DNA from: a virus
DNA: 21,901 nt
Virus record (IMG/VR): IMGVR_UViG_3300031216_000076
Coordinates: 1 to 21,901 of that record
Reading direction: 5' to 3' (one strand)
In this document: in pieces, positions 1-14,557 of the stretch
Numbering within the stretch: the stretch's first letter is position 1
How the letters are laid out: each line of letters opens with the position of its first letter
Position numbers and translations under genes: made by a program
Notes under the pieces: generated by a model
Told to the model about the DNA's origin: nothing
Databases searched by the model: none
What the model saw: only the letters and a program-made list of their open reading frames with translations

Positions 1-311
1 GCATGGTGCTTGGCATTCAGCCACCGCTAGTTTTTGAGCGAGCTTTTAACGACCGTTACGGCGAAATGGTTTACGATACGGCGCTAAAATGGAACGGCGG
101 CGACAAGCATGATTACGTTAAACTTGAGAATCTTTGCTTGGCGTTCGATGTTGAATCACCAAAACAGGGCATGAAGGGCAGCGATGTTTACCGATACTGG
201 CAAGCTGGGCGCATTGAAGAGATTGCAGAGTATTGCCGAGGCGATGTCGAAGCCACCCATGCCGTTTATAAAAAAATGACTATGAAGTTTTACCCGCATG
301 AAAACCGCTAG
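1..311 (+). CDS. DnaQ/PolB-like 3'-5' exonuclease, C-terminal part (5' end outside window)
   Basis: The reading frame is open at the left edge, so this is the C-terminal ~102 residues of a longer protein. The visible part matches the end of the RNase H-fold 3'-5' exonucleases related to the proofreading domain of family B polymerases. An acidic YDT motif lies near residue 25 (counting from the first in-window Met at base 3), then a helix with KLENLCLAF. After that comes the family's usual stretch ending in GRIEEIAEYCRGDVEATHAVY at residues 69-89, where Y77 and D81 form the Exo III motif. Such proteins act in phage replication or recombination by trimming 3' ends. The gene overlaps the next one, a helicase, by 14 bases, so the two are in one operon. 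The family call rests on the Exo III block; the catalytic Exo I residues are not visible. Confidence 0.8.
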   Translation, partial: MVLGIQPPLVFERAFNDRYGEMVYDTALKWNGGDKHDYVKLENLCLAFDVESPKQGMKGSDVYRYWQAGRIEEIAEYCRGDVEATHAVYKKMTMKFYPHENR

Positions 312-2124
312 ACCTTATCAGAGAGCCGCGCTTAATTCTTTGTGGCAATGGATAAATGAGAAGGAAACGCACCCACTGGTTATAGCGCCAGTGGGTAGCG
401 GTAAATCCCTCATGATTGCCGAGTTTATCAGGGGCTATAACAGCGTCCACCCTCACACGCGCATAGTCGTCATGGCGCACGACAAGCGATTGCTTGAACA
501 AAATATGGCGGAGCTTTTAGAGCAAGACCCGTTGGCAGATGCGGGTTTTTACTGTGCTGGCTTGAATCAAAAGCGGATTAATAACGACACGACTTTTGCC
601 AGCATTCAATCCATCCACGATAAAGCATCTTTGATGCACAAGCGCCCGCCGTCATTCATATTAATTGATGAGGCGCATCTTGTTAATCCGGTAAAAGATA
701 CGCGCTACCGCTCATTCATTGATGACTGCGAGGCAATGAATCCTAATTGTATTACCATCGGCTTTACTGGCTCGCCCTTCCGCAGTGATAGCGGCTACCT
801 ATATACGGGAAACCCGCGCCTATTTGACGGCGTGGCCTATGAAATAGCGATTAGCTTTATGATTGATGAGGGTTATTTATGCCGCCCCACACTTCCGCCA
901 GTGACTACAGTGATGAATACCGAGGGCGTTGGCACAAGAGGTGGCGACTTTATCGACAAACAACTAGATGATGCGGTTAATACAGATGCGCTTAACCGCG
1001 ATTGTGTTCGTGAGATTATCGAAAAAGGCGTTACCCGTAAACGCGGGCTAATTTTTACCGTGACTACCGACCATTGCGACAACGTGGTTGAAGAGTTCAG
1101 GAGGCAAGGAGAGCACGCGGAAGGAATCCATAGCAAGATGGCGAAGGGCGAAGTAAAGCGCATCATTGAGGACTATAAGGCCGGAAAAATTAAATACCTT
1201 GTGAACGTCGCTATGCTAACCACTGGCTTTAACTGCCCAGAGATTGACTTGCTGGCCTATATGCGCCCGACGCGCTCGCCCGTTTTATATATTCAATGCA
1301 CAGGCCGTGGATTGCGTACGGTTTATGCCGATGGATACGACTTAGAAACCACAGCAGGACGGCTTGCGGCCATCGCTAATAGCGAGAAACCCGATTGCAT
1401 GATTCTTGACTTCGGAGGCGTGGTGGAGGCTCTAGGGCCTATTGATGACGTAGATATTAGCTCTATTAAAGACAACAAGCCGAAGGGTGCCAGCGCGGAA
1501 GAGGAGGAGGTGGACGAATTAGATATGAAGATCTGCCCTAAATGCGAAGCACCAGCCACTAAAAAACAGCGATTATGCTATGAATGCGCTCACGAGTTTT
1601 ACGAAGAGGAGGGGCTTGCTCTTGTCCGTGGCGCAGAAACAAAGGCCGCTATTTTAGCAGCCGACCGTGTACCGGAAGAGTTCAATGTCTGGGGAATGGC
1701 AACCTCTTTTCATCGCAAGAAAACCCCAGAGGGTGAACCGCCCGCGTTACCCGTGATGAAGGTGGCCTACGAAACGGGAGCGGGTTACATTTATGAATGG
1801 GTGTGCTTTGAACACATGGGTAAGGCGCGAAACAACGCTATCAGATGGCACAAGGAGCACTTACCCGCCTTCCCTAATATGGTTCCCAAAACCGTAAACG
1901 AAGCGCTTGAAAACCAATGCCCGGAAAAGGCAAACCAGCGCAACCGTTATGTAAGGCCGAATAAAATTAGCGCCGTGAAGGCTGGGAAATTTTGGAACGT
2001 GCTTAGCAAGGTGATGCCAACGCTTGACGAGATCAATGTGATGGTTGCAGACGAGGAAGCGAAAGAAAAAGAAATTGAAGCCCAGCAATCCGCTGGTTGG
2101 ATAGACGAACTAATCGACTTTTAG
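298..2124 (+). CDS. SF2 DEAH-box helicase with C-terminal zinc-finger motif
   Basis: A 608-aa superfamily 2 ATPase that would unwind or remodel DNA during phage replication or recombination. Motifs in order are: a Q-like start RPYQRAAL (5-12), Walker A APVGSGKS (30-37), DEAH (124-127), motif III TGSP (157-160), motif V around TTGFNCPEID (308-317) and motif VI QCTGRGLR (333-340). Both RecA-like domains are therefore intact. An acidic run near residues 400-409 is followed by CPKC-(10)-CYEC (413-430), a probable zinc ribbon. The remaining ~170 residues match no domain I recognise. The start overlaps the exonuclease gene by 14 bases and has only a weak ribosome site, which suggests translational coupling. 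Its 3' end overlaps the convergent nuclease gene by 15 bases. Confidence 0.92.
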   Translation: MKTARPYQRAALNSLWQWINEKETHPLVIAPVGSGKSLMIAEFIRGYNSVHPHTRIVVMAHDKRLLEQNMAELLEQDPLADAGFYCAGLNQKRINNDTTFASIQSIHDKASLMHKRPPSFILIDEAHLVNPVKDTRYRSFIDDCEAMNPNCITIGFTGSPFRSDSGYLYTGNPRLFDGVAYEIAISFMIDEGYLCRPTLPPVTTVMNTEGVGTRGGDFIDKQLDDAVNTDALNRDCVREIIEKGVTRKRGLIFTVTTDHCDNVVEEFRRQGEHAEGIHSKMAKGEVKRIIEDYKAGKIKYLVNVAMLTTGFNCPEIDLLAYMRPTRSPVLYIQCTGRGLRTVYADGYDLETTAGRLAAIANSEKPDCMILDFGGVVEALGPIDDVDISSIKDNKPKGASAEEEEVDELDMKICPKCEAPATKKQRLCYECAHEFYEEEGLALVRGAETKAAILAADRVPEEFNVWGMATSFHRKKTPEGEPPALPVMKVAYETGAGYIYEWVCFEHMGKARNNAIRWHKEHLPAFPNMVPKTVNEALENQCPEKANQRNRYVRPNKISAVKAGKFWNVLSKVMPTLDEINVMVADEEAKEKEIEAQQSAGWIDELIDF

Positions 2125-2499
2125 CATACCGCTATCGCGTAGGGCGTGAATAAAGCTATCTTTATCGAATACGGTATAGCGCTTTATGCCCTTGCGATCA
2201 GCGGTTACGGCAAAGTCTTTCTGCGCTTTACTCATTTTACCGATAGCGCCCTTCATCGTTTTCGCGTCCTTCAATTCCATAAGGCAATGGCAGGACGATG
2301 ATAAAACAAGCCAATCGGGAGCGCCAGCAACACAGCCAGCGGCTTCTTTCTTCTGCCAGATATGAAACCCCTTACCCGCTTCCGCCAAAAACTCATTCGG
2401 AACCGTGTAATGCATGGTGTTGATTGCTTCGATTTCATTAAGCCGATCAAGCCACATCTTAATTTTTTGAGAGAGTAATTCTTCCGGCTTTATATGCAT
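2110..2499 (-). CDS. VRR-NUC-type (PD-(D/E)xK) nuclease
   Basis: A 129-aa protein with the restriction-endonuclease-fold active site typical of phage VRR-NUC proteins: GAPDW (59-63, D62), then E75 and K77 in MELKD, then the Q93 helix in KMSKAQKDF. Members of this family include structure-specific or Holliday-junction nucleases, and phage copies are often found beside SF2 helicases, as here. I chose the ATG at 2499 rather than an upstream in-frame TTG at 2514. The ATG overlaps the stop of the upstream repressor gene as TAATG, and there is no Shine-Dalgarno sequence, so translation is probably coupled to the repressor gene. It is convergent with the helicase, with 15 bases of overlap and no terminator between them. 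Substrate (junctions, flaps or host DNA) cannot be told from sequence. Confidence 0.8.
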   Translation of the reverse strand: MHIKPEELLSQKIKMWLDRLNEIEAINTMHYTVPNEFLAEAGKGFHIWQKKEAAGCVAGAPDWLVLSSSCHCLMELKDAKTMKGAIGKMSKAQKDFAVTADRKGIKRYTVFDKDSFIHALRDSGMLKVD

Positions 2500-2708
2500 T
2501 AAGTTATATTGCAAAAATCATTGGGAGTGACGACACCGCCAGTGCAATCGCTGACCGCTTGAAAGGTTTTATTGTTGAGCGGCTTGCTTCGACCTCGCGC
2601 CCAATGCCCCACAGCTTCCGGTGTTATCTTCACGCCATGCGCGGCTAGATTAATAGCGAAAGCCTTGTAGCTTAAATTCTCTTTAGCGAGATACTCTTTT
2701 ATAGTCAT
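2499..2708 (-). CDS. Cro-like helix-turn-helix transcription regulator
   Basis: A 69-aa DNA-binding protein. Residues about 12-40 form a helix-turn-helix: helix 2 near SYKAFAINLAAH, recognition helix near ITPEAVGHWARG. It closes with TGGVVTPNDF (56-65), an ending typical of small Cro/YdaS-like phage regulators. The frame stays open upstream to a GTG at 2735, with an ATG at 2714. I prefer the ATG at 2708 because GGGG lies 8 bases ahead of it. The gene faces away from the small + strand genes, and the region between carries two matching inverted repeats, so it probably represses both directions. It is the first gene of a two-gene operon with the VRR-NUC nuclease. At 69 residues it lacks the dimer/cleavage domain of full-length CI repressors. 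Confidence 0.8.
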   Translation of the reverse strand: MTIKEYLAKENLSYKAFAINLAAHGVKITPEAVGHWARGRSKPLNNKTFQAVSDCTGGVVTPNDFCNIT

Positions 2709-2748
2709 GTTCATAGCCCCATAATACAAGCCCACGCTCAGGTAGTCA

Positions 2749-2777
2749 AATATAAACTAACAATCTGTTATTCTTAT
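2749..2777 (-). promoter_or_regulatory. Candidate promoter for the repressor-nuclease operon
   Basis: On the - strand a TATATT -10 box lies at 2754-2749, about 41 bases ahead of the chosen repressor start. No good -35 is found at the usual distance (ATAAGA at 2777-2772). The left half of operator O1 begins at 2756, directly beside the -10, so repressor bound at O1 would block this promoter. It is weak as a match; the placement between start codon and operator is the main support. Confidence 0.4.
2756..2772. promoter_or_regulatory. Operator O1 (inverted repeat ACTAAC-N5-GTTATT)
   Basis: Arms ACTAAC (2756-2761) and GTTATT (2767-2772) match as an inverted repeat at 5 of 6 positions around a 5-base spacer. 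It shares left arm, spacer length and the CTGTTA core with O2. Inferred binding site for the adjacent Cro-like protein; it touches the -10 of the leftward promoter and lies just ahead of the -35 of the rightward promoter. Confidence 0.65.
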
Positions 2778-2805
2778 TGACGCGCTACTAACGGCCTGTT
2801 AGTGT
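2777..2805 (+). promoter_or_regulatory. Rightward promoter for the small-gene operon
   Basis: TTGACG (2777-2782, 5 of 6 to the sigma70 -35) and TAGTGT (2800-2805, a modest -10) are separated by 17 bases. Operator O2 covers the spacer and half of the -10, which is the usual geometry for a repressed early promoter. It would drive the genes starting at 2839. Confidence 0.55.
2787..2803. promoter_or_regulatory. Operator O2 (perfect inverted repeat ACTAAC-N5-GTTAGT)
   Basis: The 6-base arms are perfectly complementary (2787-2792 and 2798-2803) around GGCCT. The centre is 31 bp from the centre of O1, about three helical turns, so two dimers would sit on the same DNA face. Inferred site for the Cro-like protein encoded next door. 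Confidence 0.7.
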
Positions 2806-2838
2806 AATTGAATAGAGAATTAATCAATGGAGAATAAA

Positions 2839-3012
2839 ATGTATATTTCTATGTATGATGTAAAAAATATAAAAGTAGATTCAATAGAAAGGCTTAAGGG
2901 TTCCAGCTCTTTTGTTTCAAAGATTACAATAGAAGGCGATGACGGCGTAGAATTAGAGATAAAGCTTTTTAGCGATAACAAGCAAAACCTAGAAATTAAA
3001 ACAGGAGAATGA
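2839..3012 (+). CDS. Small hypothetical protein (57 aa)
   Basis: A 57-residue protein of unknown role, first gene after the divergent operator region. The ATG at 2839 is preferred over the in-frame ATG at 2827 because GGAG lies at 2829-2832 with a 6-base gap, an ideal ribosome site for the second ATG. The middle looks like a beta-hairpin (SFVSKITIEGDDGVELEIKL, with alternating hydrophobic and charged residues), and the rest is acidic and polar. There is no signal peptide or membrane segment. It is followed one base later by another small gene with its own AGGAG site. It resembles small accessory genes of phage early operons; I assign no function. Confidence 0.65.
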   Translation: MYISMYDVKNIKVDSIERLKGSSSFVSKITIEGDDGVELEIKLFSDNKQNLEIKTGE

Positions 3013-3013
3013 A

Positions 3014-3187
3014 ATGACTTACATAGCATGGATAACGACTATCGACCAAGGAGGGGATCAGGAGTTTGACGCTTATTCTTGCGACACGCGACAGCAAGCG
3101 CTTGATATAATCAAACAGAGATCGCAAAATTATCTAGGGAAATCCTCGATAGAACACCCAAACGGAAACATGGAAAGAGTAAAGTAA
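3014..3187 (+). CDS. Small hypothetical protein (57 aa)
   Basis: A 57-codon reading frame that begins MTYIAWITTIDQGG and ends NMERVK. It is supported by a GGAG at 3004-3007 six bases before the ATG, by starting one base after the stop of the previous gene, and by a stop that overlaps the next start as TAATG. The protein is soluble and polar; residues 25-40 (TRQQALDIIKQRSQNY) could form one helix after a short beta segment. No known family is recognised. Tight packing between two other small genes argues that it is real rather than a chance frame. Confidence 0.6.
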   Translation: MTYIAWITTIDQGGDQEFDAYSCDTRQQALDIIKQRSQNYLGKSSIEHPNGNMERVK

Positions 3188-3369
3188 TGAAACACGAATT
3201 AATATTTTCAGTTCTAATGACGATAATAGTTATGGCGGGGACCCTTGCGTTTAACGTGGCTTATCATGCCACCACGCCGTCATCGCATGATGAAATTAAA
3301 CTGCGATGCGAGCAAACGCCATCGCATGATAAGTCAACAATCACCTTGCTTGAATGCAATAAGATATAG
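3187..3369 (+). CDS. Small single-pass membrane protein (60 aa)
   Basis: After MKHE, residues about 5-25 (LIFSVLMTIIVMAGTLAFNVA) form one hydrophobic helix. About 35 polar residues follow, with two cysteines (C41, C57). This could be a type II inner-membrane protein with its C-terminus in the periplasm, or an exported protein with an N-terminal signal anchor; no clear signal-peptidase site is visible. The start overlaps the previous stop (TAATG), so it is translated with its neighbour. Such proteins in phage early operons can act in superinfection exclusion or as lysis accessories, but that is a guess; the two cysteines would fit a disulphide in the periplasm. Confidence 0.6.
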   Translation: MKHELIFSVLMTIIVMAGTLAFNVAYHATTPSSHDEIKLRCEQTPSHDKSTITLLECNKI

Positions 3370-3372
3370 CGC

Positions 3373-3402
3373 TTGATTAAAAACTAACAACTAGCATATA
3401 AT
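3373..3402 (+). promoter_or_regulatory. Promoter for the packaging genes, carrying a half-operator
   Basis: TTGATT (3373-3378) and a perfect TATAAT (3397-3402) are separated by 18 bases, placed 27 bases ahead of the start at 3429. ACTAAC, the left arm of operators O1 and O2, lies at 3383-3388, four bases after the -35, exactly as in the rightward promoter at 2777. The right arm is not conserved. It is the best -10 match in the window. Confidence 0.65.
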
Positions 3403-3428
3403 AAAACATCATAACCGGAAGAATTAGA

Positions 3429-3722
3429 ATGAAAACTACGTTAGACCAATTACCAAAACTTTGGCAGATCACAGGCGCAGAGTTTGAAGATATTAAAGCC
3501 GAGAAGGCGCAATTCACAGCGAAGGCGAAAGCTATTCGAGAGCATGGGCAAAAAAAGATTGAAGAGGCAGCCAAGATGTTTCGCCTCAATGTTTTCAATG
3601 TTGTCGGGCTTGACCCTAGCTTAACGGAAGAGGCGGTGACACTTCACCTTTCGGATGATTACGCTGATGATGGGCTGATTATTGTTAAGGTTTTCCCAGC
3701 GAAAGAAGAAGCCACCGAATAA
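3429..3722 (+). CDS. Hypothetical protein before terL (possible terminase small subunit by position)
   Basis: A 97-aa protein with no domain I recognise. Residues about 16-50 are a charged helix rich in Ala, Glu and Lys that could form a coiled coil (AEFEDIKAEKAQFTAKAKAI). The C-terminal half carries a short beta-like segment (LIIVKVFPA) and ends in acidic residues. GGAAG at 3417-3421 sits seven bases before the ATG. Its stop overlaps the terminase start as TAATG, so the two products are made together. Small terminase subunits are usually encoded here, which makes that role possible, but I see no helix-turn-helix; it could equally be an unrelated small protein. Confidence 0.6.
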   Translation: MKTTLDQLPKLWQITGAEFEDIKAEKAQFTAKAKAIREHGQKKIEEAAKMFRLNVFNVVGLDPSLTEEAVTLHLSDDYADDGLIIVKVFPAKEEATE

Positions 3723-5200
3723 TGACGGTCGTTAATTTCCATATTAAACCACAAGGCGAGGTGCTCGAGGCGTATTATAACGACCGAGCGCCTTGCTCTT
3801 TTATTATGGGGCCGCTTGGCTCAGGAAAAACTACCACCAGTTGCCAACGCCTTTTTAAATTAATGTGCCAGCAGCTACCCAACAGAGAAGGCGTGCGACC
3901 CACCCGCTGGTACGCAGTGCGTAACACATACCCCGACTTAATGACCACCACTATTAAAGATTGGCTTGAGCTTGTCGGTGATATTGGAAAATTCACAGGA
4001 GGCGGGTTCGAGCCTCCAACGTGGCGCGGGACGTTTTCACTCCCTAATGACGGAACCACAGTAAAGGCGGAGGTTGTATTCATCGCGCTTGATCGCCCCG
4101 ACGCTGTGAAGAAATTGCGTGGCTCGCAGGTTACAGGCTTTTGGCTGAATGAAACCAAGGAGCTAGACAAGGCCGTCGTTGATATGGCTGATGCGCGTCA
4201 CGGGCGCTACCCTTCTATGGCAGCGGGCGGCGTTATCGCTACATGGCATGGGATGTTTGGCGATACTAACGCACCCGACGAGGATAGCTGGTATTACAAG
4301 CAAGCCGAGGAGGTGAAGCCCGATGGCTGGAATTTCCACCGTCAGCCCGGCGGCGTAAACATCAAGAAGGTGAACGGCAAGGATTCGTTTTCTGTAAACC
4401 TCGCGGCAGAGAATATCGACAACCTGCCAGACAAATATTATCAGCGCCTCATTCAGGGTAAGGCCGACGATTGGGTGCGTATCAACCTTGCTAATGAATA
4501 CGGCTTTGTTGTATCAGGCCGCCCCGTCATGCCGGAATACATCGACTCATTCCATTGCCGCCCGTGCGCCTATGATCCCAACCTTGTGCTTAATATCGGC
4601 ATGGATTTTGGACTAACGCCAGCCGCCACGTTTACACAGCGTAGCCCGATGGGGCAGGTTAGAGTGATTGCCGAATTAGTCGCAACCCGATTGGGAGCGA
4701 AGAATTTTGCGCGAGAAATTAAAGCGCTTATATCTCTAAACGGATGGAGTAACGCTAGAATGGGGAGTATTACAGGCGATCCCGCTGGAAACCAAGGCCA
4801 GCAATCAGACGAGACTATGACCGTCTTTAAGATGATGGCAAGCGAAGGTATTATCGCCCTTCCCGCTCACTCAAATATATTCGCCACACGGCGTGAGACA
4901 GTCGCAGACCAGCTAACAAAAGTTATTGATGCCGAGCCAGCGCTTATTATCGACCCGTCATGTAAGACGCTGCGCAAGGGCATGGCGGGTGGATACTGTT
5001 ATCGTCGCATTCAGGTAGTCGGCAGCGAGCGCTACCAAGACAAGCCAGATAAAACACCAAGCAGCCATGTTTGCGAGGCGCTTCAATATGATTTAATGGG
5101 GCAAGGCATTAGCCGTGAAACCATTTTACAGCCACAGCACACGCTAGAAATGATGGCGAACCGCCCCCGCGTGGCCGTTACAGAGTTTAATCCTTTCTAG
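3722..5200 (+). CDS. Terminase large subunit
   Basis: The 492-aa DNA-packaging motor that cuts phage DNA and pumps it into the prohead through the portal. The ATPase domain shows Walker A GPLGSGKT (30-37) and a Walker B-type stretch VTGFWLNETKEL (137-148) with the catalytic Glu at 144. The RNase H-like nuclease domain shows D295 in IGMDFGLTP, D353 in GDPAGN, and SHVCEALQY (448-456), where the last metal ligand seems to be E452 in the position where many relatives have Asp. Length is normal for the family. It overlaps the preceding small gene by one base. Unlike T7, where the terminase gene lies at the far end of the late genes, it stands here ahead of the portal. The packaging type (cos, pac or terminal repeats) cannot be told from this. 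Confidence 0.95.
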   Translation: MTVVNFHIKPQGEVLEAYYNDRAPCSFIMGPLGSGKTTTSCQRLFKLMCQQLPNREGVRPTRWYAVRNTYPDLMTTTIKDWLELVGDIGKFTGGGFEPPTWRGTFSLPNDGTTVKAEVVFIALDRPDAVKKLRGSQVTGFWLNETKELDKAVVDMADARHGRYPSMAAGGVIATWHGMFGDTNAPDEDSWYYKQAEEVKPDGWNFHRQPGGVNIKKVNGKDSFSVNLAAENIDNLPDKYYQRLIQGKADDWVRINLANEYGFVVSGRPVMPEYIDSFHCRPCAYDPNLVLNIGMDFGLTPAATFTQRSPMGQVRVIAELVATRLGAKNFAREIKALISLNGWSNARMGSITGDPAGNQGQQSDETMTVFKMMASEGIIALPAHSNIFATRRETVADQLTKVIDAEPALIIDPSCKTLRKGMAGGYCYRRIQVVGSERYQDKPDKTPSSHVCEALQYDLMGQGISRETILQPQHTLEMMANRPRVAVTEFNPF

Positions 5201-5212
5201 CCCCCGCCTCAT

Positions 5213-5241
5213 TTGCCATTTACATTTTGCGGATGTAGAAT
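5213..5241 (+). promoter_or_regulatory. Promoter A of a three-member set (head genes)
   Basis: TTGCCA (5213-5218) and TAGAAT (5236-5241), each 5 of 6 to consensus, are separated by 17 bases. A CCCCCGC tract lies just upstream (5201-5207). The first of three sites (also 8684 and 21108) with TTGC in the -35 and TANNNT in the -10. It would start a transcript for the genes from 5270 through the scaffold. Confidence 0.65.
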
Positions 5242-5269
5242 AGAGCAAAGCACATTAGAGGATTTTGTT

Positions 5270-5458
5270 ATGGGCGGCCCTAAAGCACAGAAGCTACCAC
5301 CACCGATTGAAGCACCAACGGTTGATGAGGCACAAGTAGCCACCCAAGACGCAGACCGATTGCGTAAGCGCAAAGGCAGATCAGCAAATATTTTGACGGG
5401 AGCGGGTGGAGATACTGCCCTAACCACAGGCAACACCAAACTATTGGGCGGGGCTTAA
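5270..5458 (+). CDS. Small conserved-type phage protein (62 aa) with GRSANILTG motif
   Basis: A 62-residue protein. The start at 5270 is chosen because AGAGGA at 5257-5262 sits seven bases ahead. An in-frame TTG at 5213 lies inside the -35 of promoter A and would lack a ribosome site. The N-terminal half is Pro/Ala-rich (KLPPPIEAP), then a basic patch RLRKRKGRS (about 30-38), then ILTGAGGDTALTTGNTKLLGG. From memory, small proteins with this plan (basic patch, 'ILTG', glycine-rich 'LLGG' end) sit between terminase and portal or tail genes in many phages; their job is not established. It is probably a minor virion or assembly protein. No membrane segment or catalytic motif is visible. Confidence 0.75.
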   Translation: MGGPKAQKLPPPIEAPTVDEAQVATQDADRLRKRKGRSANILTGAGGDTALTTGNTKLLGGA

Positions 5459-5459
5459 C

Positions 5460-5765
5460 ATGGCTTTACTATACGTTAAAGAATACGAAACACTTGGCAA
5501 CGATAATAAGAGCGCGGCTCAGGTTCCAATGGAGCCGGGCGTTGCGGAGCAAACCCCTGTTACCTTTACGACTGCCACTCAATCAGCGGCGCTGAATGAT
5601 GCAACGAAAATCGTAATGCTGCAATCAGATGCCGATTGCCATATTCTTTTTTCCGTAAACCCCACCGCAACCGTTAATCACGAAAAGCTAATCGCTGGGA
5701 TTAAATATTATCGCGGCGTTCCAAAGGCGAGCGGATTCAAAGTATCAGTTATTGCAGCGACGTAG
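5460..5765 (+). CDS. Small beta-rich phage protein, probable virion component (101 aa)
   Basis: A 101-aa protein starting one base after the previous stop, with GGGCGGGG just ahead as a possible ribosome site. The sequence alternates Thr/Ala/Val-rich strands (TPVTFTTATQSAALN about 32-46; KIVMLQSDADCHILFSV about 50-66), then a glycine/proline-rich turn and a closing strand (GFKVSVIAAT). This pattern of strands and the phrase 'DADCHILFS' recall small all-beta proteins encoded near the portal or capsid genes of other phages, often annotated only as hypothetical. It is probably part of the virion surface or head; a decoration-like role is inference from position and fold impression only. Confidence 0.7.
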   Translation: MALLYVKEYETLGNDNKSAAQVPMEPGVAEQTPVTFTTATQSAALNDATKIVMLQSDADCHILFSVNPTATVNHEKLIAGIKYYRGVPKASGFKVSVIAAT

Positions 5766-5771
5766 CCATTC

Positions 5772-7427
5772 ATGGATAATACCGCAAAAGATGTAGTAAA
5801 AATGCACGGAGTTATGAAGTCCGAACGTGTGAACTTCGACTCCTTATATCAAGAGATTGCCGAGCGGGTAATGCCAGAATATGGCGGGTTTAATGGCGAG
5901 GTTCTACGCGACCAGAGGCCAGATCGTACACTGGTATTCGACAGCACAGCCCCCAGCGCGTTGGATAAATTAGCGAGTGCGCTTGATGATATGCTCACCC
6001 CTCGCAACTCGCGATGGCACGGGCTGGAAACCAACGATAAAAAGATAAACGAGGATCGCGGTTTTCGCCTATGGGCTGACGAGGTGCTTGATATTATTTT
6101 CGCAGAGCGCTACTCGCCACGCAGTAACTTCGCGAGCCAGATTCACGAATGCTACAAAGGGCTTGGCGGCTTCGGCACTGCCTCACTTTTCGTTGATGAT
6201 TCCATGGGCGGCGTTATTCGCTACCGTGCTGAGCATTTAGCGGGTGTGTGGATTCGTGAAAATGGGCATGGCGTTATTGATTACGGACACCGCGAGATTA
6301 AACTTGATGCAGAGCAAGCCGCAGATCGGTTTGGCGAGGATGTTTTGCCGCCGGAGATTCTAAAGGCGCGTAAGGATTCCCCCGCAAAGAAATTTGATTT
6401 CATCCACGCGATTAAACCGAATAGAGACTACGACCCAGAAAGCCGACGCAACGACCGGATGAAATATTCATCTATTTATGTTTCCGTTACTGGCATGAAG
6501 ACGGTTCAAGAGGGCGGCTACCGCACCTTCCGTATGCCGACAAGCCGCTACACCACAATGCCGCGCCAGCTTTACGGCAGTAGCCCAGCCATCCGCGTTT
6601 TGCCAGATATTAAAACCCTTAATGAGATGGAAAAAACCATCTTAATGCAGGGGCAGAAATCGGTTAATCCGGTATTAGTCGCGGCGAAAGACGTTCTCTT
6701 ATCTCAGTTTTCTATGGTACCGGGTGCAATCAATTACGGCGGCATGGACGAGCGCGGGCAACAGCTAATACGCGAGATGCCAACGGGCGCAAACTTCCCG
6801 CTAGGGCTTGAGCTTTCAGACCGCCGTCGCGAAATTATTAACGACGCCTTTCTTGTAAATTTATTCCAAATTTTAGTGGATACCCCAACAATGACGGCTA
6901 CCGAAGTGCTAGAGCGCACCAAGGAAAAGGGAATGCTTCTAGCTCCTACGGGCGGGCGTCAGCAGTCGGAACTACTTGGCGGCATTATTGAGTGCGAGCT
7001 TGATATTTTGGAGCAGCAGGGCAAGCTACCGCCTAAGCCTCAAATCCTTTTGGATTCAGGTGCCGAGGTTTCAGTTCTCTACACCTCACCACTTAACCGC
7101 GCCCAACGTGCGGGCGAAGGATTAGCTATCCAACGCACACTTGAAAGCGTCACCCCCTTGGCGCAGATAGACCCATCAGTTTTAGATCCATATAATCTGC
7201 CAAAAATCAGCCGAGAGCTAGCAGATATTCATGGCATGAAACCGAGCCTAATGTTCTCAGAGGAAGAGATGGCAGAAAAAGACGAACAAAAAGCACAAGC
7301 CGCGCAAGCCGAGCAACTACTGAATGCAGCGCCAGTAGTAGCTGATTCCGCTAGATCATTTGCCGAAACTCAGGCATTGGCTCAGTCACCTTCTAACCAA
7401 GCGTTGCCAAATATTATTCCACAATGA
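5772..7427 (+). CDS. Portal protein (T7-type head-tail connector)
   Basis: A 551-aa protein of the T7 gp8-like head-tail connector family. It forms the dodecameric ring at one capsid vertex, the gate for packaging and ejection, and docks the terminase and the tail adaptor. Family marks are LTPRNSRWHGLE (75-86), GLGGFGTASLFVDD (130-143), YGSSPA (268-273) and PTMTATEVLER (372-382), the latter the most conserved block of this family. The length is close to T7 gp8 (536 aa). The C-terminus (about 485-551) is Ala/Gln/Glu-rich and low in complexity, typical of the flexible portal barrel end. There is no clear Shine-Dalgarno before the ATG. The stop overlaps the next gene as ATGA. Confidence 0.93.
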   Translation: MDNTAKDVVKMHGVMKSERVNFDSLYQEIAERVMPEYGGFNGEVLRDQRPDRTLVFDSTAPSALDKLASALDDMLTPRNSRWHGLETNDKKINEDRGFRLWADEVLDIIFAERYSPRSNFASQIHECYKGLGGFGTASLFVDDSMGGVIRYRAEHLAGVWIRENGHGVIDYGHREIKLDAEQAADRFGEDVLPPEILKARKDSPAKKFDFIHAIKPNRDYDPESRRNDRMKYSSIYVSVTGMKTVQEGGYRTFRMPTSRYTTMPRQLYGSSPAIRVLPDIKTLNEMEKTILMQGQKSVNPVLVAAKDVLLSQFSMVPGAINYGGMDERGQQLIREMPTGANFPLGLELSDRRREIINDAFLVNLFQILVDTPTMTATEVLERTKEKGMLLAPTGGRQQSELLGGIIECELDILEQQGKLPPKPQILLDSGAEVSVLYTSPLNRAQRAGEGLAIQRTLESVTPLAQIDPSVLDPYNLPKISRELADIHGMKPSLMFSEEEMAEKDEQKAQAAQAEQLLNAAPVVADSARSFAETQALAQSPSNQALPNIIPQ

Positions 7428-7738
7428 ACCGAGATTTTTTCTTAGATATTATCAAGCGCAAGAAGCGCGCCTATAATGCGTGTTTCCATTTAACCGGAAG
7501 CGGCGAGCAGCTATCGCAAAGCGGCGTTATAGTGCTTTCTGATATTGTGGAATTTTGCAAGCCATACGCAAGCACCCATGTTTCTGGTCGTGATGGCATG
7601 ATTGACCCTATCGCTGCGGCAGTAAGGGAGGGGCAACGAAGCGTTTACCTCCATTTATTGAAGCAGCTACATCTTGATGATTCAGAGATCATTAAAGCAA
7701 CCCAACAACTAGAAAAAGGAGAATTGGGATATGAGTGA
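7424..7738 (+). CDS. Bbp19-like structural protein
   Basis: A 104-aa helical protein resembling the small family typified by Bordetella phage BPP-1 Bbp19. Marks are the N-terminal RKKRAYNACF (12-21), then SDIVEFCKPYAST (39-51), then DPIAAAVREGQRSVYLHLLKQLHL (61-84), which matches the family pattern of a 'D-hydrophobic-EGRR-V-hydrophobic' helix ending in HL. The family lies between portal and scaffold genes and is thought to be a minor virion protein; its exact role is not established. The start overlaps the portal stop by 4 bases (ATGA) with no ribosome site, so it is probably translated by re-initiation. The end overlaps the scaffold gene by 8 bases. Confidence 0.78.
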   Translation: MNRDFFLDIIKRKKRAYNACFHLTGSGEQLSQSGVIVLSDIVEFCKPYASTHVSGRDGMIDPIAAAVREGQRSVYLHLLKQLHLDDSEIIKATQQLEKGELGYE

Positions 7739-8591
7739 AGCAGCGCAACTACTAGCAGGAGGAGGGGCAGCAACCCCACCGCCAGCAACAGATACACCAA
7801 CACCGCCACCAGCAGCAGAAGGTGCAGCAGTGCCACCAGCTACACCATCAGCAGATGCACCGTGGTATGGTTCTATTGAAGACGCAGAGCTAAAAGGCTA
7901 CGCAGAAAATAAAGGGTTCAAAGACCCAGCAGCAGCGCTCAATTCTATGCGGAATTTGGAAAAGCTGAACGGCGGCGATAAAGTCGCTATGCCGAAAGAC
8001 GGCGAAGATAAAGAAGCGTGGAACAAGGTTTACGATAAGTTAGGCCGCCCAGCCACACCAGCCGATTACCAGCTACCAACCGCCGAGGGTGATGACGGCG
8101 TTTTTGCGGGCGAGGCTGGTAAGTGGATGCATGAAGCAGGTTTAAACACCACTCAGGCGCGGGCATTGGCTGAAAAATGGAATGCACACGCGGCAGGCTT
8201 GCAAGGTGAGTCTGAAACCGAGCGTGCTATTTCCTCCGAAAAAGAAATTGCGGATTTAAAAAAGGAATGGGGCAGTAATTACTCAGCGAACCTTGAGATT
8301 TCAGAGCGTGTAACGCGGGAGTTCGATATTCCACGCGGTGATATTGACTCCGTACTTGGCGGTAATGAAGCCGCGCTCGCCCGTATCCTCAAAAAAGTTG
8401 GCGATGGAATGCTTGAGTCAAAGTATGTTGAGGGTGATGGAAACCTTAGCTTTACGCAGACAGCAGCAGGCGCACAGGCAGAGATTACATCTTTGCGATC
8501 AGACAAAGACTTTATGGCTAAATACCAAAAAGGCGATCCAATGGCAAAACATAAGATGGATTCGCTTTACAAGAAGACTACTAAAGTATAA
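7731..8591 (+). CDS. Capsid assembly scaffolding protein
   Basis: A 286-aa acidic, helix-rich protein ahead of the major capsid gene. Scaffolds line the inside of the prohead and guide capsid proteins, then leave. Residues about 10-42 are a Pro/Ala/Thr-rich low-complexity tail. Next is WYGSIEDAELKGY (45-57) with LNSMRNLEKL (70-79) and RPATPADYQLP (106-116), phrases common in phage capsid-assembly proteins. The C-terminal part ends with ITSLRSDKDFMAKYQKGD and a basic helix MAKHKMDSLYKKTTKV, the kind of C-terminal basic helix that contacts the capsid shell. A strong AAGGAG precedes the ATG. It is the last gene before the terminator at 8632. Confidence 0.88.
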   Translation: MSEAAQLLAGGGAATPPPATDTPTPPPAAEGAAVPPATPSADAPWYGSIEDAELKGYAENKGFKDPAAALNSMRNLEKLNGGDKVAMPKDGEDKEAWNKVYDKLGRPATPADYQLPTAEGDDGVFAGEAGKWMHEAGLNTTQARALAEKWNAHAAGLQGESETERAISSEKEIADLKKEWGSNYSANLEISERVTREFDIPRGDIDSVLGGNEAALARILKKVGDGMLESKYVEGDGNLSFTQTAAGAQAEITSLRSDKDFMAKYQKGDPMAKHKMDSLYKKTTKV

Positions 8592-8631
8592 GCTAGGATT
8601 GTCTACTATATTGTTTGGTTCTTTCGAGATC

Positions 8632-8669
8632 AAGGTCGCCCTCTTATCCGTGGGGCGGCCTTTTTCTTT
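8632..8669 (+). terminator. Rho-independent terminator after the scaffold gene
   Basis: The stem GGTCGCCC (8634-8641) pairs with GGGCGGCC (8653-8660), with one G-U pair, extended by AA/TT, and is followed by TTTTTCTTT. The 11-base loop holds CTTATCCG (8643-8650), the reverse complement of the CGGATAAG repeat found three times just downstream. It ends the portal-scaffold transcript 40 bases after the scaffold stop. Confidence 0.85.
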
Positions 8670-8683
8670 AGCCCCCGCGCGCC

Positions 8684-8711
8684 TTGCGTATTCAATCTAC
8701 TAGGATATACT
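8684..8711 (+). promoter_or_regulatory. Promoter B (major capsid gene)
   Basis: TTGCGT (8684-8689) and TATACT (8706-8711) are separated by 16 bases, with TAGCCCCCGC at 8669-8678 just upstream, as at promoter A. A start near 8718 would give the capsid gene its own transcript with a leader of about 140 bases. It lies directly after the terminator, so capsid expression can be set apart from scaffold and portal. Confidence 0.65.
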
Positions 8712-8721
8712 GTAAATTAAT

Positions 8722-8813
8722 CGGATAAGGCTACGCGCCCCCGTGATACTAAAACCGGATAAGGCTTTTGCCCCCACCCCTTTTAAAATCACGGCCCCGA
8801 TTCGGATAAGCCT
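8722..8813 (+). repeat. Three direct repeats CGGATAAGSCT in the capsid-gene leader
   Basis: CGGATAAGGCT occurs at 8722-8732 and 8756-8766, and CGGATAAGCCT at 8803-8813; starts are 34 and 47 bases apart. A fourth, inverted copy of CGGATAAG is in the terminator loop at 8643-8650. I did not find the 8-mer elsewhere in the window. An inverted repeat CCGTGAT (8741-8747) / ATCACGG (8788-8794) encloses the second copy. From 8814 to the capsid start the leader is AT-rich and probably unstructured. Role unknown: protein-binding sites or an RNA leader structure. Confidence 0.7.
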
Positions 8814-8856
8814 CAAACTATTAAATATTATTAATTAAAGTAAATGAGGTTTACAA

Positions 8857-9795
8857 ATGACTGAATCATTGGTTCCAGCACACGACCGAGTACAGTACTC
8901 TGATAACGTGTCACAACTCCTACAAGACAAGGGCGGCAAACTTGTCGGCGGCGTCATGGTGGATATGCACAAAGGTAAGCAAGCAAGCGTTGTCGATCAA
9001 TACGGCATTGTTGAAATGAAGGCTAAAAACGGCCAGCGCTTCACGCCTATCGAATTTTCTGATATTCCACACACTCGCCGTTGGGTAGTCCCGCAAGAGT
9101 ATGACCTAGCCATCCCTGTTGATGACTTCGACAAACTCCGTACGATTTCCGATCCAACAAATACCTATGTTGAATTAGGCCGCAAGGCTATTGCCCGTAA
9201 AGAAGATGCTATCATCTTTGCTGCATTCTTCAGCACTGCAAAAGTTGGTGAAATGGGTGGCGACACTGAAACCTTCAACACTACATCCTACCGCATCGCG
9301 GCTGGCGTTGGTGGCGGCGGCTCTGATGTTGGCTTGAATGTTGCTAAAATTAAAGCAGCAATCACGATTTTCCTAGAAGCAGAAGTTGATTTCGATGATG
9401 AGTCGAACCAGCGCTTCATGGCAATCACGCCAGCGGAAAACGAGCAGCTGCTTGATGAAGTTCAAGTTGTTAATTCGGATTATCGTGGCGAGAAGCCTGT
9501 TCTTGATGGCGATGGCCGCGTCCGTTCTTACTTGGGCGTTAATTTCATCGTGTTCGCATCTACCACATTCGTTAAAAACGGAATGGTAGTAGGTGCAAAT
9601 CGCACTCTCCCTTGTTGGGTGAAGTCCGGTATGCATTTAGGGCGCTTCGATCCAGCAGGCCACGGCCCAATGAGTGTCGATATTTCGCAACGTAAAGACT
9701 TAAAAGGCCATCCGTATCAGATTTACTTTGATATGGCAGGCGGGGCGACTCGCTTGGAAGCTGGCAAAGTCATTCAAATCCTATCTAAAATCTAA
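8857..9795 (+). CDS. Major capsid protein
   Basis: A 312-aa capsid subunit; many copies build the icosahedral head (HK97-type fold inferred from family). The N-terminal half carries FSDIPHTRRWVVPQEYDLAIPVDDFDKLR (69-97), where the 'TRRWV-P--YD-AIPVDDFD' pattern is common in podovirus capsid proteins of the Phage_capsid_2 kind. Then come a glycine-rich loop GVGGGGSDVG (about 151-160) and FMAITPAENEQLL. The C-terminus ends in IYFDMAGGATRLEAGKVIQILSKI with the family's 'D---GA-R----V--I' pattern. GAGG precedes the ATG at good distance after an AT-rich leader. It has its own promoter and is followed closely by a decoration-like gene. No slippery frameshift site like that of T7 gene 10 is evident at its end. 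Confidence 0.92.
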   Translation: MTESLVPAHDRVQYSDNVSQLLQDKGGKLVGGVMVDMHKGKQASVVDQYGIVEMKAKNGQRFTPIEFSDIPHTRRWVVPQEYDLAIPVDDFDKLRTISDPTNTYVELGRKAIARKEDAIIFAAFFSTAKVGEMGGDTETFNTTSYRIAAGVGGGGSDVGLNVAKIKAAITIFLEAEVDFDDESNQRFMAITPAENEQLLDEVQVVNSDYRGEKPVLDGDGRVRSYLGVNFIVFASTTFVKNGMVVGANRTLPCWVKSGMHLGRFDPAGHGPMSVDISQRKDLKGHPYQIYFDMAGGATRLEAGKVIQILSKI

Positions 9796-9808
9796 GGGAG
9801 ATTAGACC

Positions 9809-10294
9809 ATGACTGTTAATAACTTGAAATCGGCACCGCTAACTAATGCGGATGCACGCCCGATTGCACCATCCTACCCTTTTGAAGCCAACGGCGTTGT
9901 GCGCTCTAGCACGGGCCATATTGCAAAGGTTGCAGGAGATACGAACGGCTCTACTTTCCGTTTTGTGCGCCTACCTTCTAACGCTCGCCTTATCGGACGG
10001 ACGCTAGAGAATGACGCTTTATCTGGTTCGACTGATTGCGATATCGGGCTTTACAATGTTGACGGCGGGGCAGTGGTTGACGCTGACTTGCTGGAAGACG
10101 GCCTTGCGCTCACAAGCGCAGGATCAGCTTTCGCACCCTTTGGCGTTACGGCACCAGAGAATGCGGCTAAGCGCCTTTGGGAATTGGCGGGTGAAACCGT
10201 TGATCCGGGTGGCGAGTATGATGTTGTTCTCACTGGTACCACTATCGGTACTGCTGCGGGTGACATTCGCCTAGAAGTTCTTTGGACTATCTAG
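9809..10294 (+). CDS. Decoration-like / minor head protein (161 aa)
   Basis: A 161-aa, all-beta looking protein starting 13 bases after the capsid gene with GGGAG as ribosome site. The core FRFVRLPSNARLIGRTLEND (about 51-70) is followed by DCDIGLYNVDGGAVVDADLLEDGLALTSAG and LWELAGETVDPGGEYDVVLTGTTIGTAAGDIRLEVLWT. Proteins of this plan ('--F--lPsnA-i----', 'D-GlY', 'WEL-G---DPG--YDV---l') lie after the capsid gene in many podoviruses and are taken to be head-surface or minor capsid proteins. The first ~30 residues are polar and may be flexible. Made with the capsid protein from the same transcript. The exact role, decoration or head completion, is inference. Confidence 0.75.
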   Translation: MTVNNLKSAPLTNADARPIAPSYPFEANGVVRSSTGHIAKVAGDTNGSTFRFVRLPSNARLIGRTLENDALSGSTDCDIGLYNVDGGAVVDADLLEDGLALTSAGSAFAPFGVTAPENAAKRLWELAGETVDPGGEYDVVLTGTTIGTAAGDIRLEVLWTI

Positions 10295-10312
10295 CCCAAT
10301 AGAGCAGGAGTA

Positions 10313-10346
10313 TGGGGAAGGGTTTAGCGCGCTGCTACCTTCCCCA
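10313..10346 (+). terminator. Strong hairpin after the decoration gene (partial terminator or processing site)
   Basis: TGGGGAAGG (10313-10321) pairs perfectly with CCTTCCCCA (10338-10346), and the loop can fold again as TAGC/GCTA (10325-10328, 10334-10337). The following bases, CTTCTTAATG, are poor in T, so full termination is doubtful. It lies between abundant head proteins and low-copy tail proteins, a natural place to lower transcript level. Confidence 0.6.
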
Positions 10347-10381
10347 CTTCTTAATGCAGCGCAACCAAAGAGGTAAATATT

Positions 10382-10552
10382 ATGGCTACCGCATTTTACG
10401 GCATTAACATTGGCGAAACCACTGTTACGCAAGACACGTCCACCACATCAAAAGATATTGAGCTGGCAGTCGATGACGCCAACTCACCTAATAAGCTTGA
10501 TATATTTCTAGCCCTAAAGGAAATCGCCCACGCTGCTGAGCATAAAGCCTAA
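10382..10552 (+). CDS. Small phage protein (56 aa) before tail tube A
   Basis: A 56-residue protein beginning MATAFYGINIGE and ending AHAAEHKA. AAGAGG at 10368-10373 sits eight bases before the ATG, and the stop overlaps the next start as TAATG. The plan, with 'YGIN-G' near the start, 'STTSKDIELAVDDA' (20-33) and a closing amphipathic helix LDIFLALKEIAHAAEH, recalls short proteins found between capsid and tail-adaptor genes in many phages, where 'TTSKD-E--VD' is a recurrent phrase. Those are of unknown role, probably virion-associated or assembly factors. The location between head and tail genes fits a head-completion helper. Confidence 0.72.
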   Translation: MATAFYGINIGETTVTQDTSTTSKDIELAVDDANSPNKLDIFLALKEIAHAAEHKA

Positions 10553-11151
10553 TGGCCTCGCAGGTAGATATTTGCAACCTAGCGCTTACCAGCCTTGGCG
10601 CGGCACCTATTATCAGCATCGACGATGATAGTGAGCCAGCGTCATTGCTGCGGCTTATCTACGATCTGACGCTTGAAAACGAGCTACGCATAAACACATG
10701 GCGCTTTTCCATTAAACGCACCACGCTGCCCGCCCTAGCGACTGCGCCCGCATACGGATATAGCAAGCAATACGCCTTGCCTTCCGATTACTTGCGAGCC
10801 ATTCAGGTGGGTGAGCATTACGTTTGCGAGAACCTGCGAAATTATGTTACCGATAAGTCAACCTTCTACACGTTAGAGGGAAACCTTATTTTAACCGATG
10901 AGGCGGCACCGTTAAAATTTCGCTACATCACAAACGGATTGACTCCCGATGAGTATGATTCAGCATTCGTTATGGTGATAGCCGCAAGGCTTGCCGCCAT
11001 GCTTGCCGAGCCGATCACTCAAAGTAATTCAAAAAAAGCCGCTGCAAAACAAGAATACAAAGACGCGCTAATGGCCGCCCTTGGTTCTGGGTTGGTCGAA
11101 GTACCAGCAGAGGCGCAACAACATGATAGCTGGATTCTAGCGAGGATTTAA
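10552..11151 (+). CDS. Tail tubular protein A (T7 gp11-like adaptor)
   Basis: A 199-aa tail adaptor of the T7 gp11 type, which forms the ring below the portal and joins it to the nozzle. Typical features are the N-terminal VDICNLALTSLGAAPIISIDDDSEPA (5-30), WRFSIKRTTLPAL (50-62), YALPSDYLRAI (73-83) and LRFRYI-like 'PLKFRYITN' (119-127), ending in a helical part with ARLAAMLAEPITQS (144-157). Length equals T7 gp11 (196 aa). Starts on the stop codon of the 56-aa gene (TAATG) and is followed four bases after its stop by tail tubular protein B. Confidence 0.92.
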   Translation: MASQVDICNLALTSLGAAPIISIDDDSEPASLLRLIYDLTLENELRINTWRFSIKRTTLPALATAPAYGYSKQYALPSDYLRAIQVGEHYVCENLRNYVTDKSTFYTLEGNLILTDEAAPLKFRYITNGLTPDEYDSAFVMVIAARLAAMLAEPITQSNSKKAAAKQEYKDALMAALGSGLVEVPAEAQQHDSWILARI

Positions 11152-11155
11152 TAAA

Positions 11156-13639
11156 ATGGTTAAAGCATCTCCGAGCCTTTCATCTTTTAACGCGGGCGAG
11201 CTTAGCCCCCTTTTAGATGGCCGTTCAACAGGCGGTTTCGAGGCGACCTATAAATCAGGGTGCCGTGTATCTGAAAATTTCATTCCATTAGTTCAAGGCC
11301 CCGCTATGCGACGTGGTGGAACTAAGTTTATAAAAGAAGTGAAGAATAGCGCGCACCGTACATGGTTGCTGCGATTTATCTTTTCAGCAAGCCAAGCCTT
11401 CACCCTAGAATTTGGCGATGAATACATCCGTTTTTATGCGAATCGCGGAACGGTGCTTGACGGCGGCGGCTCTGATTATGAGATTGCAAGCCCCTATGCA
11501 ATAGCTGACCTCACAAACAGTGACGGAACGTGCGCGATAAAATTTAAACAATCAGGCGATGTTATTTATTTGGTTTGCGATGGCTACCCTCCACAAGTTT
11601 TGCGACGCTTTGGAAATTCAAATTGGACTATTACGCCATACGCCTCTTCAAATGGGCCATTCAAAAAGCAGAATATCGACGAAACAATCACAGTGACAGG
11701 GCTGACTTACGCGGCGACAGTTTCAGGCGCGGCGAATAATGGAAGCGGATTGATCCGCTTAACCGTAAACACCACGGCAGATTATGTCACAGGTGATTAT
11801 GTAAGGGTTGCGCTGGTTGCTGGAACCGCAGAGGCTAATGGCCGCTGGATGATAACAGTAATTAATGCAACCACCGTTGATTTAGTCGGTAGTGTTTTTT
11901 CTAATAGCTACACATCAGGCGGCGAGGTTCGCACCCGTAGCGAAAAAGGCAACACAATCACCCTAACGTCGAGCGCCGATTTATTCCAAGCTGGCCTTGT
12001 TGGCAGCCTTATTCAGCTAGAGCAAAGCGCCCTTACTGATATTCGCCCCTGGGAGGTTGGTAAGCCCGTTAACGTAACCGAGCTGCGCCGTAGCGACACA
12101 AAAACCTATGAGGCTGTAAGCACAGGATTAGCGGGCGCGAGTCGCCCTATCCATACCGAGGGCGCACGCTATGACGGAAGCGACGACCCAGACACGGGCG
12201 GAGCAGTCGAGGGCGTGAATTGGCTTTACAATGATGCGGGTAGTGGCAACGTAGAGATTACCGAATACATAAGCACCACCCAAGTTAAGGGTATTATCCG
12301 CGAAAACTTACCGTATGAGCTGACGCTTAATCAAGGCACCTTCCGCTGGGCTTTGCAGTCATGGAGCGAAGTGGAGGGATGGCCTACATCCGTCACGATT
12401 TTCCGCGAGCGGCTTTGCTTCGGCCTTGGGTTTAACACTTATTTATCTGTATCAGGTGACTTCGAGAATATGGCGGGCAAATCGTTTGGCGAATTATTGC
12501 CAGATAGCGCGATGATCGTTCCAGCCCTCAATGATGAAACGAATCAAATCCAATGGCTTCACCCAGCCAGTGAAGGGTTGCTTGTCGGCACAGGTGGTGG
12601 CGAGAGCATTATTCGCGCCACATCATCAGGCGAGCCACTGGCACCGGACAACGTAGAGAGTAAGCCGCAGACGGGTTACGGTAGCCGAGCGATCAGCCCT
12701 ATCACCGTGGGTAGCCGTATTCTATTTGTGCAGCGTAGCGGGCGCAAGGTTTACGATAATGGTTTCTCCGTTTCATCAGATCGCTATGATGGAAACGATC
12801 AGACTATTAGAGCCGAGCATATAACGCAAACGGGCTTGATTGATATGGTGTATCAGCAAGACCCATACAGCCTTATTTGGACGGTTCGCAATGACGGCAA
12901 GCTAGTTTGCTTCACCCTCAATGCAGGCGAGAGTGTAGCAGCTTGGCATAGGCACCCTATCGGCGGCAACGGGTTTGTTGAGAGCGTTCAGTCGATACCC
13001 TCGCCAGATAATGAGCGTGATGATTTATGGCTGATTGTTAAGCGCACGATCAATGGCGTGGAAAAGCGCTATATCGAGGTTATGATGCCAGAGATAGAAG
13101 ACGGCGAAGATGTCGTGAATGCCTTTTATGTCGATAGCGGTCTGACCTATGACGGCGTGGCAACTTCCACCATTAGCGGGTTGAACCACCTTGAGGGCGA
13201 GGAAGTGCAAGTTCTTATCGACGGTAGCGCTCACCCTAACCGCACCGTTTCAAGCGGCTCTATTTCCTTGCAACGTGAGGGTAGTAAAATTCATGTTGGG
13301 CTTGCGTATAGAAGCCGATTATCACCAATGCGATTAGAGGCTGGCTCAAGAGATGGCACGGCCCAAGGGAAAACAAAGCGCAGCAGTAAGATCACATTCC
13401 GCTTTCATAATACCGTTGGCGCGAAGGTCGGGCATTTGCTGGATAAATTGCGAGAGATGCCGTTTAGGGGTTCAGGGCTTGCTATGGATTCCCCTATCCC
13501 TTTATTTTCAGGCGATAAGCGTGTAGAGTGGGGAGGTGGTTACGACTCCGACGGTTTTATCGAGGTTGTTCAAGACGCGCCCCTTCCGATGACGTTGGTG
13601 GCAATCTACCCACAGGTAACAACGCAAGATAGTAGGTAG
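11156..13639 (+). CDS. Tail tubular protein B (T7 gp12-like nozzle)
   Basis: An 827-aa beta-rich protein that forms the tail nozzle of short-tailed phages, holding the fibres and the exit channel. Recognised by the N-terminal SLSSFNAGELSPLLDGRSTGGFEATYKSGCRVSENFIPLVQGPAMRRGGTKFI pattern (residues 6-58, key blocks FNAGELSPLL and GPAMRRGGTKF), by LRFIFSASQAFTLEFGDEYIRFY (71-93), and by SEVEGWPTSVTIFRERLCFG (about 404-423), the 'GyPs-v-f---RL-fgg' block of the family. T7 gp12 is 794 aa. GAGGA precedes the ATG. The C-terminal ~90 residues are variable. Followed three bases later by a GTG-started gene. Confidence 0.93.
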   Translation: MVKASPSLSSFNAGELSPLLDGRSTGGFEATYKSGCRVSENFIPLVQGPAMRRGGTKFIKEVKNSAHRTWLLRFIFSASQAFTLEFGDEYIRFYANRGTVLDGGGSDYEIASPYAIADLTNSDGTCAIKFKQSGDVIYLVCDGYPPQVLRRFGNSNWTITPYASSNGPFKKQNIDETITVTGLTYAATVSGAANNGSGLIRLTVNTTADYVTGDYVRVALVAGTAEANGRWMITVINATTVDLVGSVFSNSYTSGGEVRTRSEKGNTITLTSSADLFQAGLVGSLIQLEQSALTDIRPWEVGKPVNVTELRRSDTKTYEAVSTGLAGASRPIHTEGARYDGSDDPDTGGAVEGVNWLYNDAGSGNVEITEYISTTQVKGIIRENLPYELTLNQGTFRWALQSWSEVEGWPTSVTIFRERLCFGLGFNTYLSVSGDFENMAGKSFGELLPDSAMIVPALNDETNQIQWLHPASEGLLVGTGGGESIIRATSSGEPLAPDNVESKPQTGYGSRAISPITVGSRILFVQRSGRKVYDNGFSVSSDRYDGNDQTIRAEHITQTGLIDMVYQQDPYSLIWTVRNDGKLVCFTLNAGESVAAWHRHPIGGNGFVESVQSIPSPDNERDDLWLIVKRTINGVEKRYIEVMMPEIEDGEDVVNAFYVDSGLTYDGVATSTISGLNHLEGEEVQVLIDGSAHPNRTVSSGSISLQREGSKIHVGLAYRSRLSPMRLEAGSRDGTAQGKTKRSSKITFRFHNTVGAKVGHLLDKLREMPFRGSGLAMDSPIPLFSGDKRVEWGGGYDSDGFIEVVQDAPLPMTLVAIYPQVTTQDSR

Positions 13640-13642
13640 GCC

Positions 13643-14556: not shown

Positions 14557-14557
14557 A

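Follow-up and report, generated by a model that had tools for sequence, protein, structure and literature searches.

Between two divergent transcription units of the 21,901-nucleotide window (the whole stretch of phage DNA analyzed here) lies what is probably a Cro/YdaS-type repressor-operator module of the ordinary kind, in which a small helix-turn-helix (HTH) protein would repress the rightward promoter through two matched operators. This places the element among the familiar kinds of switch and its divergent protein in the Cro/YdaS family; the putative module is compact and comes from an uncultured podovirus-like phage.

Two 17-bp dyads occupy the region between the leftward HTH gene and the rightward operon. 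Putative operator 1 (2756-2772; ACTAAC-AATCT-GTTATT, i.e. ACTAAC-N5-GTTATT) and putative operator 2 (2787-2803; ACTAAC-GGCCT-GTTAGT), which is a perfect dyad, have their centres at 2764 and 2795, and the spacing of 31 bp corresponds to about three helical turns, so that two dimers bound there would share one face of the DNA. Positions and spacing agree exactly with those given in an earlier sequence-only reading of this DNA, and a search for the motif over the whole 21.9-kb record with up to one mismatch allowed returned the two dyads as the sole matches. A matched N5 pair occurred in none of 60 dinucleotide-preserving shuffles of the window, and matched pairs with any spacer of 0-8 in 2 of 60, while 20,000 shuffles of the 112-bp intergenic region produced the N5 pair once. 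Since it is nearly absent from the shuffles of both the window and the intergenic region, the dyad pair is a genuine feature, far above chance. The sole near relative that carries the locus, IMG/VR contig 3300031269_000161, is 99.9% identical to window positions 1-14576 (12 differences, none of them within 2490-3440) and extends 121 bases further left.

The placement of the dyads relative to the promoters is asymmetric. The leftward promoter of the regulator (2721-2749, minus strand; TTGACT-17-TATTAT, score 12.9, predicted +1 at 2714) is the only sigma-70-like site with a 10/12 match on the minus strand of the window, and the rightward promoter (2777-2805, plus strand; TTGACG-17-TAGTGT, with an extended -10 TG at 2797-2798) is the top-scoring candidate within the 130 bases before the ATG at 2839. 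Operator 1 adjoins both -35 boxes on their upstream side, 6 bp from the leftward and 4 bp from the rightward one. Operator 2 lies within the spacer and -10 box of the rightward promoter and overlaps its core, as expected from the earlier proposal of two matched operators placed to repress the divergent promoter, which is supported for these putative sites. The weak match of the rightward -10 (TAGTGT) counts against repression at this promoter as the main explanation. Autoregulation by the 69-71 aa protein is uncertain because the core of its own promoter is overlapped by no dyad, unlike in typical Cro autorepression. A lambda OR2-like activation of the leftward promoter was also considered and is not claimed, as the centre of operator 1 is near -50 and not at -42.

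On the left side, the regulator gene (2499-2714, minus strand; 69 aa from the ATG at 2708, 71 aa from the ATG at 2714) is followed by a small nuclease-like gene (2110-2499, minus strand), which matches phrog_824, a family of no stated function, at E 1e-7 and has a nuclease motif recognized by eye. The ATG of the latter at 2499-2497 overlaps the stop codon of the regulator as TAATG (window 2497-2501), and this overlap suggests translational coupling; the two genes probably form one coupled operon. The nuclease-like gene is convergent with a helicase gene, the end of which it overlaps at 2110-2124. On the plus strand, small gene 1 (2839-3012; listed as an open reading frame from 2827) has its probable start at 2839 with GGAG 6-7 nt upstream and is followed by small gene 2 (3014-3187; 57 aa, no family) and small gene 3 (3187-3369; 60 aa with a hydrophobic N terminus, no family); a repeated start, GGAGAATRAAATG, is present at 2816-2841 and 2991-3016. 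Beyond the packaging-gene promoter (3373-3402, plus strand; TTGATT-18-TATAAT, 10/12 match) follow a gene in the position of a small terminase (3429-3722, plus strand; 97 aa, no family match) and the terminase large subunit gene (3722-5200, plus strand; phrog_2 at E 3e-13, 53% identity to BcepC6B TerL). No terminator-like site was seen on the plus strand between 2000 and 3785, so that read-through from the rightward promoter may also supply transcripts of the packaging genes.

From the dyads, promoter matches, fold and family, all established by sequence or computation, we infer a simple course of events. The 69-71 aa protein, acting as a dimeric HTH repressor of the Cro/YdaS type, would bind operator 2, a site overlapping the rightward promoter, and would also occupy, cooperatively or additionally, operator 1 at a distance of three turns on the same side of the helix. 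Occupancy of the operators would shut the rightward promoter and thereby turn off the three small genes, and, because no terminator is seen after this promoter, expression of the packaging genes would also be reduced through the loss of read-through. The separate leftward promoter would provide the repressor and the nuclease-like protein from an mRNA with a leader that is absent or about 6 nt long, and operator 1 may modulate this promoter from upstream with either sign.

The regulator alone (P0001) scored below the Pfam cut-offs, its best phage family was phrog_35 with a weak E of 0.0017, a family that includes the Cro protein of BcepC6B at E 4.5e-17, and a fold predicted from its sequence alone (pLDDT 59) led to no usable structural match. 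An AF2 model built from a 24-sequence alignment reached a mean pLDDT of 84.8 and contains the four helices of the HTH fold in the Cro/CI arrangement, and a search of the PDB with the 24-member profile placed Cro/YdaS of an E. coli prophage first (8co2, E 7e-8; 8c7k, E 1e-7). Together these results bear out the Cro-like HTH protein of the sequence-only reading. The top Foldseek match in the PDB was likewise 8co2, YdaS of CP-933P, with a probability of 1.00 but an E of 0.05, all Foldseek E-values for the regulator being above 0.001, and VIA-align gave a Z of 7.7 to 8co2, with which many HTH chains tie. Among the 24 members of the alignment, HTH_3 was matched by 19 and YdaS_toxin by 10 at E up to 0.01. 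The modeled Cro/CI-type HTH fold of this short protein can be regarded as secure, while its assignment to the Cro/YdaS subfamily rests on sequence, the relationship to recognized members being found through homologues only.

Within the named phage records, the regulator is most similar to a 76-aa protein of MT835519, with which it has 38% identity and shares TGG-x-VTPNDF near the C-terminal end. This lead extended to 69 bacterial-genome loci and three more IMG/VR records. Seven of the eight stand-alone homologues (L037, L053, L054, L056, L082, L094 and L099) face an HTH_3 or HTH_31 gene, although L037 and L053 are close relatives and the seven divergent cases are thus not fully independent; in four of the seven (L037, L053, L054 and L094) the facing partner carries a Peptidase_S24 domain, while the eighth homologue, L055, faces a PD-(D/E)XK nuclease. 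Because seven of eight face a CI-like HTH gene, the regulator belongs on the Cro side of CI/Cro pairs. Dyads of other sequence are present between the divergent genes of L037, L054, L082, L094 and L099, and such different dyads at the same place are what would be expected of cognate operators. Two traits set the window apart from most of these relatives, namely that no CI gene faces the regulator and that the strongest dyad lies on the promoter of the neighbour and not on its own. When IMG/VR was searched with the regulator, the nuclease, the helicase and the protein in small-terminase position, this left side turned up in no further phage, a doubtful short match to the regulator in L006 being the lone exception. 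The sequences of the closest TerL/portal relatives, L008 and L039, begin downstream of the region, and in MW202898, a complete phage whose portal is related, this junction is occupied by a leftward gene of another, unrelated kind.

The bacterial loci also revealed that, in Alphaproteobacteria, the same small HTH domain with its TGGAVTPNDF ending forms in-frame N-terminal fusions with metabolic enzymes. The partner is RibBA (DHBP synthase/GTP cyclohydrolase II) in 60 of the 69 genome loci (L057 and most of L061-L124), the 2-oxoglutarate dehydrogenase E1 in about four loci from Parvibaculum and relatives (L059, L060, L073 and L086) and CoaBC in one (L058), with the enzyme domains confirmed by Pfam in one example of each kind. 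It is possible that these fusions represent self-regulating enzymes.

The predicted leftward +1 at 2714 falls on the A of the regulator's first ATG, and the homologues start at the methionine encoded at 2708, which would leave a leader of 0 or 6 nt. Because the predicted start coincides with the regulator ATG, the regulator mRNA is expected to have no leader or almost none (0 or about 6 nt predicted). In a simple scan for the best promoter-like site, with predicted start codons, the -10 box was located 5-6 nt before the regulator start codon in L037, L053, L054, L056, L099 and the window (first ATG), and shuffled upstream regions gave a -10-to-start spacing of 5-7 nt in about 2-6% of cases each. 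This placement of the -10 box suggests that a leaderless mRNA is a recurrent trait of this branch of Cro proteins, a small general observation that remains a prediction. Both PaaR2, the CI-like protein of CP-933P, and lambda cI are leaderless genes (PMC8630535).

The alternative that survives best, a minor but real possibility, is a split CI/Cro switch in which the Cro-type protein is encoded here and a CI-type protein acting on the same operators is encoded in the portion of the genome that the record lacks. This reading is compatible with the repressor-operator module and would supply it with a partner. It is favored by the seven of eight homologues with CI-like neighbours described above, four with Peptidase_S24, and by BcepC6B, the nearest named phage by TerL, which has CI, Cro and an integrase. 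No CI-type gene faces the regulator within 2110-3429, where the facing open reading frames encode 57-61 aa without family assignment, and the divergent CI-type gene that stands beside a Cro gene in a CI/Cro bistable switch is accordingly not found at this locus. The record is a linear 21.9-kb fragment of an incomplete genome, which also speaks for the split arrangement, as a CI located elsewhere in the phage would lie outside its reach. However, in the homologues CI is adjacent, while here both flanks are sequenced and contain none.

Early and late genes can be under the control of a single protein, as exemplified by p4 of phi29 and CI of phage 186. A corresponding one-protein switch, in which the regulator would also bind a third site at 3383 and repress or time the packaging promoter with no CI anywhere in the phage, appears improbable here. 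If correct, it would constitute a minimal one-component switch linking early and packaging gene expression. The site in question is the half-site AAACTAACAA (3381-3390, plus strand), which has the same 10 bp as the left arm of operator 1 and no second arm. Its ACTAAC at 3383-3388 begins four bases past the -35 of the 3373 promoter, so that TTGACG-CGCT-ACTAAC starting at 2777 and TTGATT-AAAA-ACTAAC starting at 3373 share the same -35-to-ACTAAC distance; these sequences and their identical phasing had been reported correctly. AAACTAACAA occurs nowhere else in the window (0.06 occurrences expected on both strands under a first-order model) and is the best non-operator half-site. Moreover, one half-site is unconserved in two of the four repeats in the regulatory region of CP-933P (PMC8630535), and the phage of L054 has ACCA-N3-TGGT dyads, three in the switch region and two about 10 kb away.

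On the other hand, a second arm for 3383 at N5 matches in 2 of 6 bases, and the packaging promoter has this single half-site in place of a complete operator. Scored as a dyad, 3383 reaches 8 of 12, a score that 59 positions reach or exceed, and its score relies on one arm, given that it drops out of the best 25 positions when only the other three arms are used. Taken alone, ACTAAC is no more frequent in the window than chance would give (7 occurrences, 6.55 expected), and among shuffles of the AT-rich 3373 promoter region 5.4% contained ACTAAC and 1.2% a 10-bp half-site of equal quality. A direct-repeat reading of 3383 (ACTAAC-A-ACTAGC, 5/6) was judged to be post hoc. As the half-site was chosen after the fact, it is weak evidence, and it is most probably incidental or, at most, a weak binding site; the earlier claim that a third site controls the packaging promoter thus comes down to an unpaired half-site barely above chance. 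Distant second operator sites do exist in this family, but those of L054 have both arms (L133 1759-1793, in the record of L054, 24 bp apart, near the start of a leftward open reading frame). The nearest homologues, being Cro members of CI/Cro pairs, count against a one-protein design as the default, and a CI could be encoded in the unsequenced part of the genome. The most far-reaching version, an orphan Cro-type protein that occupies the usual position of CI, is made from a leaderless mRNA and as sole regulator with no CI partner controls both the rightward operon and, through a half-operator, the packaging promoter, is very improbable. That a host protein or another phage protein binds the dyads while the small HTH protein acts elsewhere is likewise highly doubtful: Cro-type operators are not predictable from protein sequence and binding of the dyads by the regulator is putative, but the dyads adjoin the regulator gene, have no further copy in the window, and correspond in homologues to dyads of other sequence at the equivalent position.

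The preferred Cro/YdaS-type module resembles several known systems. In lambda, the divergent promoters PRM and PR have their start points about 100 bp from each other, with operators between them, and the window shares this layout with a leftward regulator that is leaderless or nearly so and a rightward mRNA with a leader; however, the regulator of the window is Cro-sized and without a cleavable domain, and two operators were found, not three. Burkholderia phage BcepC6B has a related TerL and portal and a YdaS/Cro-like protein, gp45 (phrog_35), but there the genes of CI (gp44) and Cro (gp45) are in facing orientation next to the polymerase/primase gene, whereas the lone regulator of the window lies between replication and packaging genes. 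The Cro proteins of MT835519 and IMG/VR 2517093015_000004 (L037, L053) are 36-38% identical to the regulator, end in VTPNDF and have the -10 box 5-6 nt before the ATG, and L037 also has a dyad between the divergent genes, but both Cro genes are divergent from a repressor with HTH and Peptidase_S24 domains. In the cryptic prophage CP-933P of E. coli O157:H7 two regulators, YdaS and PaaR2, face each other with sites over both promoters, while in the window a lone regulator faces small unrelated genes and its own promoter is without a dyad. Nevertheless, YdaS, a tested Cro analogue with operators between divergent promoters (PMC8630535; 8co2, 8c7k), is a small HTH protein of the same fold, and both systems combine operators between divergent promoters with a leaderless regulator transcript, there that of PaaR2 and here a predicted one.
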